In this document: positions 34,011 through 38,223 of the stretch, one piece after another | Numbering within the stretch: position 1 is the first letter of the stretch | Layout of the letters: the number at the start of each line of letters is the position of its first letter | Assembly: GCF_964036595.1 (NCBI RefSeq) | Contig: NZ_OZ038523.1 | Coordinates: 3,912,501-3,976,500 of the forward strand | DNA: 64,000 nucleotides | Direction of reading: 5' to 3' | Source of the DNA: Tenacibaculum sp. 190524A05c | Lineage (GTDB): Bacteria; Bacteroidota; Bacteroidia; Flavobacteriales; Flavobacteriaceae | Made by a program: the position numbers and the translations under genes | Notes under the pieces: model-generated | What the model saw: only the letters and a program-made list of their open reading frames with translations | Told to the model about the DNA's origin: nothing | The model's database searches: none

Positions 34011-34739
34011 ATGAATAAGTCCCTCCTAATTGATAAGTATTTAACTAATAAATTATCATCACAAGAACAAAACGTTGTCAATCAATTATTATCTAGAGAT
34101 CGTGAGTTTCATAAAGAGTTTATGTACATACGAGATGTACAACAGGCTATCTATTTTCTTGAAAGGCGAAGGTTGAAGAAAGAGTTACAAGAAGTTGAAA
34201 AGTTAAGATCCAAAACAAGAAGAAGTATTTTCATTCGAAGATGTTCTATAGCTGCTTCTATCGCATTACTTGTCGGGATATTTGGATTGAACTTATTTAA
34301 GAATGATTCAATGACAAATTTTGATAGTCTTTACAATACTCATTTTTCTCCTTATGAAAATATTGTTCACCCATTACAAAGAGGTGAATCCAATGATTAT
34401 TTAAAAAATATAGCTTTTACTGCGTATGAGAAACAACAGTATCAGGAAGCGGCAGATGCATTTTTCAACGCGTATAAAAAGAATGAGGAGTCAGAATTAT
34501 TATTCTATTTGGGAGTTTCTTTATTGGCCAATAAAGAATATAATGAAGGAAATGCAGTGTTAAAGAAATGTCTTCATTTAAATTCTAAATTCGAATCACA
34601 AATTCATTGGTATTTAGGATTATCTCATATGAAATTGAATAAGATTAAAACAGCAAAGCGCCATCTAAAATTTGTTGGGAATACTAAACAAGGCTTTAAA
34701 CAAGTTGAGGCAAAAATTTTACTTGAAAAGCTGAAATAA
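34011..34739 (+). CDS. TPR protein with a single membrane helix
   Basis: A 242-aa protein. Residues 1-75 are helical and polar (LIDKYLTNKLSSQEQNVV), like the cytoplasmic domain of anti-sigma-like proteins in Bacteroidota. A membrane helix at about 77-96 (SIAASIALLVGIFGLNLF) follows, then a periplasmic region with about three TPR units (YEKQQYQEAADAFFNAYK, LLFYLGVSLLANKEYNEGNAVL, HWYLGLSHMKLN). The ATG at 34011 is chosen; the extension to 33948 is hydrophobic noise. Its 3' end overlaps the end of the CHAT gene by 21 bases. No sigma factor is next to it here. Confidence 0.8.
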   Translation: MNKSLLIDKYLTNKLSSQEQNVVNQLLSRDREFHKEFMYIRDVQQAIYFLERRRLKKELQEVEKLRSKTRRSIFIRRCSIAASIALLVGIFGLNLFKNDSMTNFDSLYNTHFSPYENIVHPLQRGESNDYLKNIAFTAYEKQQYQEAADAFFNAYKKNEESELLFYLGVSLLANKEYNEGNAVLKKCLHLNSKFESQIHWYLGLSHMKLNKIKTAKRHLKFVGNTKQGFKQVEAKILLEKLK

Positions 34740-37517
34740 CTTTTTTCTGAATAGTATCATAAGTCCAACTACAAATACAATTAATAAAACCCAAACATAA
34801 TTGTTTGAAGATTTTATTGGGTTTGTATCTCCATTAATAACAAATCCGGCCCAATAAAAAGGATGTTGAAGTTCTTTAATAGTTGTATTTAAGTATTCCT
34901 TTTTAGCATTTTGTAATGCCGCCTTTTTATTTTCTCCTCTTTTCAATTCTTTGTAAAAAGTGCTCATGATTTCGGATGAAGACCTATCATTTACTTTCCA
35001 TAAACTCTTAACTAAAGATTTCGCTCCCGCATAAGAGAAAGCCCTAGCTAAACTGATATTTCCTTCTCCGTTTTCTAATTTTCCTATTCCGGTTTGACAT
35101 GCACTTAAAGCCACCAAATCCGCATTAAGTTTAGTATTATAAATATCCTTTATATACCAAAGATTGCTTTTATTCTCTGTTGGTGTAAATGCTAAATATG
35201 AAAAATCAGGATATTCATCATTTGCAGAAGCATGAGTGGCAAAGTGTAAAACTTGAAAATCTTTTAGTTGACCTTCGATATTGTCTAAAGTTGCATTCTT
35301 TCCAATGATAGTATCTGTATCAAAAATTGCTGCGATATTTTGAACTTCTTTTGTGTTAAAAATTAAAGGGCTAAAATCAGCTCTTGTTTCCGTACTTTGA
35401 GAATTGTAAAATTCGGGAGCTACAGCAAGAATTTTCTTTTTAGTGGATGTCTTGGGTTGAATTTTCTTGATCTCTTCTAATAAAGTAAAAGAATTACCGT
35501 AGCTAATGGCTGTTGAGTTTAGCAGATAGTTTACTCCGGAAGAAGAACTTGATAAGGCTTCAAAAGGAATATAGTATAAAAATCCGTCGGGTAATATGGT
35601 GATGTCAGATTTATCTTTTAGGGAATCAGGAATTAAACTATTGAATAAATTAAATGCCGTTTCTGCATTGTATTCACTTTTGAAATTCGATACTACTTCA
35701 TAAAAATTAAAAAGCTCTTTTTGAAAAACATGGCTGTTTTCAAATCTTAGTAAATCAACTTTGTCTTGTGTTATAATAAATTGATAAATGTGATTTTTAC
35801 CATAAAGGAATGATAATTTACCCTCATTTTCCTTTAGGTCATTTTTAATGTTATTCAAAGAAATTACTTCATAATTATATTTTAGGTTATGGTATTTTGG
35901 TTGATTTTGTTTAATAGAGTCTAGAAATGTATTGTAAGATTCTCTGGCTTGAATTAACTCTTGTTGTTTTTCTTTCGATGTTTTTGAAATATAAATATCT
36001 GTTTCTATTCTAGAAATGTTTGCTTGAAGTTGTTGCTCTTTATCGATAATTCGTTGAGGAATATTATTGAAATTAACAGCTTTGGTTAAGTTTAATACCT
36101 CAAGTAGCTGGGTAGATTTACTTCTTTCTAAAATAGTAAATGCATCATTTAAATATTTCTGTTCCTTGGTAGAATTGTATAATAAAAAACATTGGTTCAG
36201 AGCAGTTTCAAAAATTGGATAAACATTATTAATCAAGAATTGTTTATCATTTTTATTTTCTAAAGTTGGTTTGATTACATCCAGAACGTCAAGTGCAAAT
36301 TTACTAGCTCGTAATGCTTTATCAAGATCTGCATTATTTGTAGTCTTATTATAAAGTTGCGTAAGAATTTTAGATTTTAAATGCAAAATCTCAATTGTAT
36401 CATCATTGGTAAGTAAATCATTTACGGAATCAATGGTACCCGATGTGTTGTTTAAACTCAGGTTTTGTAAAGATTCATTGATGTAATCTAATGCTTTGTC
36501 TAATTTATTAGCGGAATAATAAGTGTTAGATATTTTCTTTAGAATTATAGCAATATCACTGTGCTTTTCATGATTTCGATATAGCTTATACTGTTCATGA
36601 GATTGATGATAATATTCTAATGCTTTTGAATATTGTTCTCTCTTGGCATAAACATCTCCATACAATTCTAATAAGATTTTATAGAAAGGATCGTTTTTGC
36701 GATACACTTTTTCTGATTTTGATAAAAGTTGAATTGCTTTATCTGTGTTGTTTGAAATAATATAGGAGTTTATTAAAGCTTGATACGATGTGATTAAAGA
36801 GTTGGTATAGGATTTCTTCTCATAAAAGTTAACCAGTTCCTCTAAAAGAGCAGTACCGTTTTTATATTGTTTTCTGTTATTGTAGATGGTAGCTAAGTAT
36901 CCTTTCAAAAGCATTTTTCTCGATTCAACATCATCAAAATATTCTGGATATTGATCTAATAGAATTTCGGCTTTTTCATTAAAACTCGCTGCAAGATTAT
37001 ATTTTCCCTCACTTGTGTAAATACTAGTCAAAAAAGAATAAATACTAGCTAAACTTGTAATGCTTTCTTGAGTTTTTTGAGATTTTAATGAGTTATATAA
37101 TTCAAGGAATAGTGGCTTAGCTCTCTTGTAATCTTCCAATTTATAATAGTAATTCCCTTTGTTTAATTGAAATAAGGAAAGAGTGGCTGAATAAGATTCG
37201 GAACTTAAGGAGTCTTTATAATTAGTTAATAACGATTCAAGATGGTTTAGGTTTTGCTTTAAAACAGGTAAGTTATAGTGATAGTCACTAACATAAATGA
37301 TGTATGATAAAACATTTGCTTCGTATTCATACCATCTTTGTTTTTTGCTTATATCTAATGCAGTGTTAAAATAATGATATGCACTATCTTGATTCGTATA
37401 TAAAAATTGATATGCTTGATTTGTATATTCTTGAAACTTAGAATTATTTATAGAATCGTTCTGAGAATAAGAGTAGAAGAATAGGGGGAGGAATAAAAAA
37501 AGTAGTTTAGCTTTCAT
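34719..37517 (-). CDS. Exported TPR-CHAT (caspase-like) protein with C-terminal anchor
   Basis: A 932-aa protein: signal peptide (about 1-18, ending YSQ), about ten TPR-like helix pairs (about 30-450), a coiled region (about 480-560), the CHAT domain (about 640-890) and a C-terminal membrane helix (about 908-923) with a basic tail. The CHAT catalytic pair is intact: the second histidine of HFATH (H762) and C807 in ALSACQTG. CHAT domains are caspase-fold proteases or peptidase-like regulators. Placement outside the cytoplasm, anchored in the inner membrane, is inferred from the signal and C-terminal helix. Its coding sequence overlaps that of the opposing TPR gene by 21 bases. Confidence 0.88.
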   Translation of the reverse strand: MKAKLLFLFLPLFFYSYSQNDSINNSKFQEYTNQAYQFLYTNQDSAYHYFNTALDISKKQRWYEYEANVLSYIIYVSDYHYNLPVLKQNLNHLESLLTNYKDSLSSESYSATLSLFQLNKGNYYYKLEDYKRAKPLFLELYNSLKSQKTQESITSLASIYSFLTSIYTSEGKYNLAASFNEKAEILLDQYPEYFDDVESRKMLLKGYLATIYNNRKQYKNGTALLEELVNFYEKKSYTNSLITSYQALINSYIISNNTDKAIQLLSKSEKVYRKNDPFYKILLELYGDVYAKREQYSKALEYYHQSHEQYKLYRNHEKHSDIAIILKKISNTYYSANKLDKALDYINESLQNLSLNNTSGTIDSVNDLLTNDDTIEILHLKSKILTQLYNKTTNNADLDKALRASKFALDVLDVIKPTLENKNDKQFLINNVYPIFETALNQCFLLYNSTKEQKYLNDAFTILERSKSTQLLEVLNLTKAVNFNNIPQRIIDKEQQLQANISRIETDIYISKTSKEKQQELIQARESYNTFLDSIKQNQPKYHNLKYNYEVISLNNIKNDLKENEGKLSFLYGKNHIYQFIITQDKVDLLRFENSHVFQKELFNFYEVVSNFKSEYNAETAFNLFNSLIPDSLKDKSDITILPDGFLYYIPFEALSSSSSGVNYLLNSTAISYGNSFTLLEEIKKIQPKTSTKKKILAVAPEFYNSQSTETRADFSPLIFNTKEVQNIAAIFDTDTIIGKNATLDNIEGQLKDFQVLHFATHASANDEYPDFSYLAFTPTENKSNLWYIKDIYNTKLNADLVALSACQTGIGKLENGEGNISLARAFSYAGAKSLVKSLWKVNDRSSSEIMSTFYKELKRGENKKAALQNAKKEYLNTTIKELQHPFYWAGFVINGDTNPIKSSNNYVWVLLIVFVVGLMILFRKKLFQLFK

Positions 37518-37572
37518 AATCCAATTGATATGATAGCTAAACTACTAATTTTTTTATCAATAAAATAAATTT

Positions 37573-38223
37573 CTATTCGATATAAGCATTTACCTCATAA
37601 GAGATATTTTTTTCAAGATAAGGATCGTACTTACTTATGCTTAATACTACATTACCTTGAAATCCTTTTTTGTTGATTTGAGTTGCTGGAAATCCTTCAA
37701 AGTTATCTGCTGCGAATAATTCGCCGTTTTCACTTATTACTTCACCTTTTTCAGTAGTTAATTTAACAACAACTTTTTCGATATTTTTATTAAACAAGAT
37801 GAAATCATAGTTTGTTAAAGGAATTCTACAGCTCGTAGTTCTTTTAGGACATGGAACTGGTGGAGGTGGAAGTTTAGGCATAACCGGACGAATTTGAACA
37901 AACTCTAGTGTTTTTTCGTTCTCCTTAATTTCCTTTTGTAGTTGCTCTAATTTTTCAATTAAATCTTCTTCTCCTTCTTCTATTTTTAGTAAATATTCTT
38001 CCTTAAGTTGATATTGTTTGGCAAGAGTAGATTCTAAATAATAGATATACAAATGTTCTTCATAATACGTGTTCTCGACATTTGGTTCTTCTTCAGAAGA
38101 TCTCTGAGCTTGCTTAAGTTCTGATCTTTGTTGTTCGTTTTCCAATGTTTCTGTGTCAGCGTTGTTAGAGCATGAAAAAATTAACAAAGGAGCAATTAGT
38201 AATTTTAATAGTGATGTTTTCAT
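37573..38223 (-). CDS. Lipoprotein with a coiled-coil and proline-rich segment
   Basis: A 216-aa lipoprotein: lipobox LIFSC (cysteine at 18), a Gln/Glu-rich acidic coiled region (about 22-105), a proline-rich PPPPVPCP segment with a nearby second cysteine (CPKRTTSC), then a beta-rich C-terminal domain (about 130-216). Function is unknown. It is 55 bases upstream of the CHAT gene on the same strand, so the two may be co-transcribed and work together. Confidence 0.72.
   Translation of the reverse strand: MKTSLLKLLIAPLLIFSCSNNADTETLENEQQRSELKQAQRSSEEEPNVENTYYEEHLYIYYLESTLAKQYQLKEEYLLKIEEGEEDLIEKLEQLQKEIKENEKTLEFVQIRPVMPKLPPPPVPCPKRTTSCRIPLTNYDFILFNKNIEKVVVKLTTEKGEVISENGELFAADNFEGFPATQINKKGFQGNVVLSISKYDPYLEKNISYEVNAYIE

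Follow-up and report, generated by a model that had tools for sequence, protein, structure and literature searches.

A predicted periplasmic caspase-like protein linked to a sigma factor and its putative anti-sigma factor in Tenacibaculum

Here we describe a gene trio in a 64,000-nucleotide stretch of the genome of Tenacibaculum sp. 190524A05c (NCBI RefSeq assembly GCF_964036595.1, contig NZ_OZ038523.1, forward-strand positions 3,912,501 to 3,976,500; hereafter the window, counted from its first letter). The three genes encode a single-pass membrane protein with tetratricopeptide repeats (TPRs), a TPR protein carrying a caspase-like CHAT domain, and a lipoprotein. In marine flavobacteria, gene order and a shared promoter connect the caspase-like protein with a putative anti-sigma factor and with a sigma factor of the extracytoplasmic function (ECF) type. 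This suggests a stress switch whose protease would release the sigma factor through cleavage of the anti-sigma factor. We consider it rather probable that the trio is the protease and receptor half of an envelope-signalling sigma/anti-sigma circuit, in which the CHAT protein would make the site-1 cut in the TPR anti-sigma factor; the module and its wiring are strongly supported.

Results

The TPR gene belongs to a conserved unit that begins with a sigma factor gene. At all 21 sites found in relatives, a gene of about 180 codons precedes the TPR homologue on the same strand, usually with an overlap or gap of a few bases, and its products are ECF sigma factors (Sigma70_r2 in 18/20; SigW chain matched at 5e-6). 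A further survey of the TPR gene covered 61 sites in 60 genomes of the same family; a sigma open reading frame (ORF) was called at 60 of them and was seen by eye at the last (L078), which had been considered as a second orphan TPR locus and was rejected as such, the sigma gene being intact there. When the two surveys are pooled, the sigma gene lies directly upstream of the TPR gene at 82/82 sites outside the window. The CHAT gene is linked at each of the 61 surveyed TPR sites: at 58 it lies within 9.4 kb, and at the other three it falls just outside the retrieved sequence or at its edge. Since the TPR and CHAT genes stand tail to tail at 36/61 sites, as they do in the window, the convergent arrangement is more than chance.

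The unit was also recovered from the sigma side, by searching 84,980 species genomes with a sigma alignment only and taking the 80 best loci. The TPR gene is directly downstream in all 80 (at L193 the sigma ORF was uncalled, a tblastn match being present) and CHAT is found in 76, the remaining four being two split genomes, discussed below, and two contig ends. These loci come from Tenacibaculum, Polaribacter, Aquimarina, Winogradskyella, Maribacter, Flavobacterium and others, with single records from Spirosomataceae and Mangrovivirga; among 61 genomes sampled across the phylum, members of the TPR family were seen only in the class of the window. The anti-sigma and CHAT proteins come from separate genes, both in the window and in the relatives that were compared. 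Taken together, these loci establish a family unit made of an ECF sigma factor, a single-pass TPR anti-sigma-like protein and a predicted periplasmic, tethered TPR-CHAT protein, often accompanied by a CHAT-linked lipoprotein. The first-pass annotation of this DNA had proposed a check of gene neighbourhood, and would have given up the system idea had linkage been missing elsewhere or had the signal and C-terminal helix varied; linkage turned out to be nearly universal in the family, and the topology is conserved.

Several variants of the locus were observed. Tandem arrays with three or more CHAT genes per sigma-TPR pair occur at L070 (6863-15661) and L066 (2083-13975), the latter with one broken CHAT copy, and the CHAT gene of Polaribacter sp. 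MSW5 (L149, 8214-10979) is spread over three ORFs, through decay or sequencing error. A CHAT paralogue close to that of L056 stands alone, with neither a sigma nor a TPR gene, at L059 (7165-9846). An exported family with the motif AQFWKKLKKK (DUF4412 in one member) is repeatedly divergent from the sigma gene.

The architecture read from the window sequence by the first-pass annotation was borne out for all three proteins. The CHAT gene product matches Pfam CHAT (PF12770) at 5.2e-60, in addition to TPR models; its CHAT domain (residues 633-897) follows a signal peptide and a TPR solenoid, and precedes a single helix at the C-terminus (about residues 905-922; transmembrane part about 906-922), after which comes the positively charged tail RKKLFQLFK. 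H758, H762 and C807 are invariant in 60/60 aligned CHAT proteins. In the topology check that had been suggested, a signal peptide or lipobox was found in 58/59 proteins, the C-terminal helix in 56/59 and the positive tail in 59/59. The convergent TPR protein has a cytoplasmic helical domain (1-67), a single transmembrane helix (about 77-97, positive on the N side), a conserved juxtamembrane linker (98-126) in which R124 is kept in 154/158, and periplasmic TPRs (127-240). Its gene overlaps the CHAT gene by exactly 21 bp (34719-34739). The lipoprotein gene lies 55 bp upstream of CHAT, and its product has the lipobox LIFSC and a charged, helix-like middle. Charge and hydropathy predict a cytoplasmic N-terminus for the TPR protein, a short cytoplasmic tail for CHAT and a periplasmic location for both TPR arrays. 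AlphaFold2 models are consistent with these layouts, with a mean predicted local distance difference test score (pLDDT) of 88.9 for the TPR protein (helices 3-67, transmembrane helix 77-97, TPR helices 127-240) and 85.6 for CHAT (TPR solenoid, CHAT fold, C-terminal helix). Compared with PDB structures, the CHAT model fits best to Csx29 as found in the Cas7-11/Csx30 complex (7e-15) and, close behind, to DdvA (6e-14). DdvA also ranks first when the CHAT profile is compared by sequence, through its C-terminal CHAT region (6.5e-6, over the His/Cys region).

An anti-sigma role for the TPR protein is likely, not proven, given the fixed position of its gene after an ECF sigma gene and the profile matches of its relatives. 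Anti-sigma models match 12/41 and 10/41 members of the TPR family, always under the cut-offs, over about residues 8-106, which cover the cytoplasmic domain and the transmembrane helix, the best matches being 3.5e-8 and 9.2e-5. The label "anti-sigma-like" given to this protein at first reading was therefore apt.

Judged from its sequence, the lipoprotein is likewise part of the sigma-TPR-CHAT unit. A profile was built from 19 lipoproteins encoded directly upstream of CHAT at other loci, with the window sequence left out. It finds the window lipoprotein at 3.8e-35, and individual family members reach up to 5e-22 against it (in a small database of 21 sequences). The family shares a charged middle, a PPPPxPC...C pattern and a C-terminal domain, and a member lies directly upstream of CHAT in 32 of the 80 loci of the sigma query. 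In loci of the divergent type, other exported proteins take the place of the lipoprotein upstream of CHAT.

In the window itself the unit is split. No ECF sigma gene lies upstream of the window TPR gene, where 200 bp lead to the next gene and no sigma ORF is listed; a sigma remnant at this place was rejected for the same reason. A sigma factor encoded in trans, with Sigma70_r2/r4 and SigW matches, is found in the same genome at G000:C1:2824968-2825516, about 1.1 Mb from the window. Every part stands together in the unsplit loci of an uncultured Tenacibaculum (G012) and T. holothuriorum, in the order outer membrane protein (OMP) and lipoprotein pair, AQFWKK-type operon, sigma-TPR, CHAT and lipoprotein, followed by the same flanking genes. 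In the window genome, the site matching these loci (L057) has the sigma gene, a TPR copy and the AQFWKK operon, without CHAT, and the window half-locus has TPR, CHAT, lipoprotein and the OMP pair, flanked by gapA-like and RidA-like genes. Tenacibaculum isolates 4-47 and 4-641-3Z likewise carry both half loci, each in its corresponding context (CHAT identity 69 and 68%). Moreover, the window-type TPR clusters with the TPR of unsplit loci, whereas the sigma-adjacent copy does not (moderate support); a domain-wise comparison of the divergence of the TPR copies, made to locate a CHAT-binding face, gave no clear difference. This comparison of loci shows that what was once one ancestral locus has been divided in the window genome and in two related ones, where the sigma gene and a second TPR copy stayed at the ancestral site. 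The three-gene signalling set proposed in the first-pass annotation is thus a conserved unit but an incomplete one: the circuit is probably of the sigma/anti-sigma kind, its sigma factor is encoded about 1.1 Mb away, and the OMP/lipoprotein pair would be included through a shared promoter-like motif.

This motif, TGTTWACYYT-N13/14-CAYYAA (29-30 bp), is common to the upstream regions of the sigma gene and the lipoprotein-CHAT operon. It has three matches in the 64-kb window against 0.01 expected, and nine in the 4.13 Mb of the genome (one with a reversed-pattern control), of which three are in the window and three at the trans sigma locus. Of the other three, one precedes the gene of a thiol-cytolysin-like exported protein, one precedes that of a collagen-like lipoprotein whose relatives bear the motif in other genera, and one lies inside an unrelated ORF; this last match (G000:C1:2753264, in an enoyl-CoA hydratase-like ORF) was taken as chance. 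In the two other split Tenacibaculum genomes, the motif is present at both half loci, with no matches in the controls. The same rare promoter-like motif thus precedes the sigma gene and three transcription units of the window. It is absent from the paralogous modules of the same genome (L055, L056, L058) and from the lone CHAT locus L059, so that the paralogous modules appear insulated from one another. The core TGTTWAC lies at most 200 bp from the sigma gene in 29/37 loci of the adjacent type versus 5/23 of the divergent type; a second motif considered for the divergent type, GTTACCCA, was dropped, being present in 3/23 loci.

Two further predicted members of the sigma regulon bear the motif. 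One is an exported protein (L135, G000:C1:987485) with a thiol-activated cytolysin domain (PF01289, 1.6e-26). The other, recurrent in several genera and sometimes with two motif copies, is a family of collagen-like "SPEDGxDG" lipoproteins (L143, G000:C1:4021416; L120, L127, L131).

Table 1. Features of the half-locus in the window and of related loci (window positions unless a locus is named).
Feature	Position	Strand	Remark
TPR membrane anti-sigma-like protein, 242 aa	34011..34739	+	elsewhere its family always follows an ECF sigma gene
Candidate periplasmic, membrane-tethered TPR-CHAT protease, 932 aa	34719..37517	-	signal peptide, TPR solenoid, CHAT domain, C-terminal transmembrane helix
Codon of predicted catalytic His762 of CHAT	35232..35234	-	from sequence; invariant 60/60
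Codon of predicted catalytic Cys807 of CHAT	35097..35099	-	from sequence; invariant 60/60
Lipoprotein, 216 aa	37573..38223	-	family often directly upstream of CHAT in convergent loci
Sigma promoter-like motif TGTTTACTTT-N13-CACTAA	33960..33988	+	upstream of TPR gene
Sigma promoter-like motif TGTTAACCTT-N14-CACTAA	38257..38286	-	upstream of lipoprotein-CHAT operon
Sigma promoter-like motif TGTTAACCCT-N13-CATTAA	33836..33864	-	upstream of OMP/lipoprotein pair
OMP beta-barrel protein, 156 aa	33340..33810	-	predicted regulon member; orthologue near sigma gene in unsplit loci
Lipoprotein, 237 aa	32599..33312	-	same predicted operon as OMP; orthologue near sigma gene in unsplit loci
TPR anti-sigma proteins lacking the first 35-40 cytoplasmic residues	L063 5930-6529; L064 2393-3010; L065 7806-8414		still after sigma gene
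AQFWKKLKKK exported family	L057 6102-6860; L060 7352-8167; L063, L064, L065; an 18-locus cluster		

Discussion

The periplasmic CHAT protein is most likely a site-1 protease of the membrane anti-sigma factor, the cleavage itself being what we infer. Given that DdvA fuses an anti-sigma factor to a CHAT domain and that Csx29 acts on a sigma inhibitor, the separate CHAT and TPR proteins may well act together, and it is from these parallels that the site-1 role is proposed. The cytoplasmic domain of the TPR protein would keep the sigma factor at the membrane, the periplasmic TPRs of the same protein would dock the TPR solenoid of CHAT, and the lipoprotein would report the state of the envelope and gate CHAT. 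Once active, CHAT (His762/Cys807) would make the site-1 cut in the juxtamembrane linker, where R124 is a candidate for recognition or cleavage; Arg or Lys is preferred by many clan CD proteases. An M50 site-2 protease, of which the genome encodes one, would complete the cleavage, and the freed sigma factor would transcribe lipoproteins, OMP proteins and more CHAT in a positive loop.

Several points weigh against this interpretation. The anti-sigma matches of the TPR relatives are all under curated cut-offs, the window protein itself fits the models weakly (E 0.2), and the cytoplasmic domain is shorter in some TPR members that still adjoin a sigma gene. The two linkage surveys have some genomes in common and are not fully independent, and the boundaries of the motif were picked by eye from the loci before scanning. 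The strict conservation of R124 could be structural, and the loop could lead to activation or to shut-off.

The CHAT protein might instead be an active protease that is an output of the regulon, induced by the sigma factor and cutting some envelope protein other than the anti-sigma factor, such as the lipoprotein transcribed with it. This would fit the placement of CHAT and lipoprotein in one predicted operon under a sigma-type motif, the paralogue without sigma or TPR neighbours in this genome (L059) and the extra tandem CHAT copies served by one sigma gene (L070). We regard it as somewhat unlikely, because 76/80 sigma loci keep CHAT next to the sigma-TPR pair, and mostly convergent with the TPR gene, a tighter link than one target among many would lead one to expect, because the TPR copy that moved with CHAT is closest in grouping to that of unsplit loci, and because Csx29 and DdvA link CHAT directly to anti-sigma control. 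It is quite improbable that CHAT is a sensor or scaffold which binds the TPR anti-sigma factor and alters its grip without cutting, as may hold for the built-in CHAT of DdvA. DdvA does combine CHAT and anti-sigma in one chain, and TPR-TPR contacts could be enough for allostery, but the invariance of H758, H762 and C807 would be needless in a pure scaffold. Finally, an anti-phage or suicide module, with CHAT as a defence effector like those that activate bacterial gasdermins or act in type III-E CRISPR (PMC10028731), is hardly credible, since neither the trio nor 18 CHAT relatives had a PADLOC match, no gasdermin or CRISPR gene was recognised among the ORFs around the trio, the CHAT protein is exported and, in three genomes, the locus is conserved with housekeeping genes on either side.

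Should CHAT prove to be the site-1 protease, the role of caspase-like proteases would reach beyond CRISPR and cell death, to the routine switching of envelope genes in bacteria. More tentatively, and with confidence just short of even, we suggest a widespread class of Bacteroidia envelope signalling, in which each TPR-type anti-sigma factor would have a dedicated site-1 protease, namely a tethered periplasmic caspase-like protein, and a dedicated lipoprotein as sensor, one genome holding several insulated copies of the system. The module offers a named sigma factor, anti-sigma factor, protease, lipoprotein and promoter, in very many genera of Flavobacteriaceae and in a few records outside. In an incomplete literature collection, we found no paper on ECF sigma factors of Tenacibaculum or on CHAT together with an anti-sigma factor in Bacteroidota, and no earlier description of a periplasmic CHAT protein that is tethered and accompanied by a separate TPR anti-sigma factor and a lipoprotein; the sole match for CHAT domain and anti-sigma was the Craspase paper (PMC10028731). 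CHAT near ECF genes and CHAT-linked sigma control, through ECF54 and Craspase respectively, are already known.

Indeed, ECF54 sigma factors have CHAT, subtilase or carboxypeptidase neighbours, and proteolytic control has been proposed for them (PMC8999054). CHAT is encoded near an ECF sigma gene there as here, but ECF54, with an example from Geodermatophilus, is described as lacking an anti-sigma factor (PMC8999054). The sigma-E system (RseA-DegS-RseP-RseB) resembles the proposed circuit in its membrane anti-sigma factor, its tethered periplasmic protease (here the proposed site-1 protease), the availability of an M50 site-2 protease and its envelope regulon of lipoprotein and OMP type (here predicted). 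It differs in that a CHAT protein stands in place of a PDZ serine protease and TPRs in place of the periplasmic domain of RseA, and no RseB-like protein was recognised here. A transmembrane anti-sigma factor with a CHAT domain is DdvA of Myxococcus xanthus (PDB 8rot/8rw5), whose chain bears the deposited name "CHAT domain-containing protein"; it is one fused chain, whereas here the anti-sigma and CHAT proteins are separate, convergently encoded and accompanied by a lipoprotein. In the Craspase/CASP system of type III-E CRISPR (Csx29, Csx30, CASP-sigma), Csx29 cuts Csx30 and is thought thereby to relieve the inhibition of an ECF sigma factor (PMC10028731), so that a TPR-CHAT protease acts on an ECF sigma inhibitor, as is proposed here. 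Among the ORFs neighbouring the trio, no Csx30 and no cas7-11 or other CRISPR gene was recognised. Csx29 is cytoplasmic and activated by guide and target RNA, and Csx30 is not membrane-bound, whereas here CHAT would be exported and tethered, and the anti-sigma factor would span the membrane. If the proposed role of CHAT is correct, the cytoplasmic Craspase circuit would thus gain a transmembrane counterpart.

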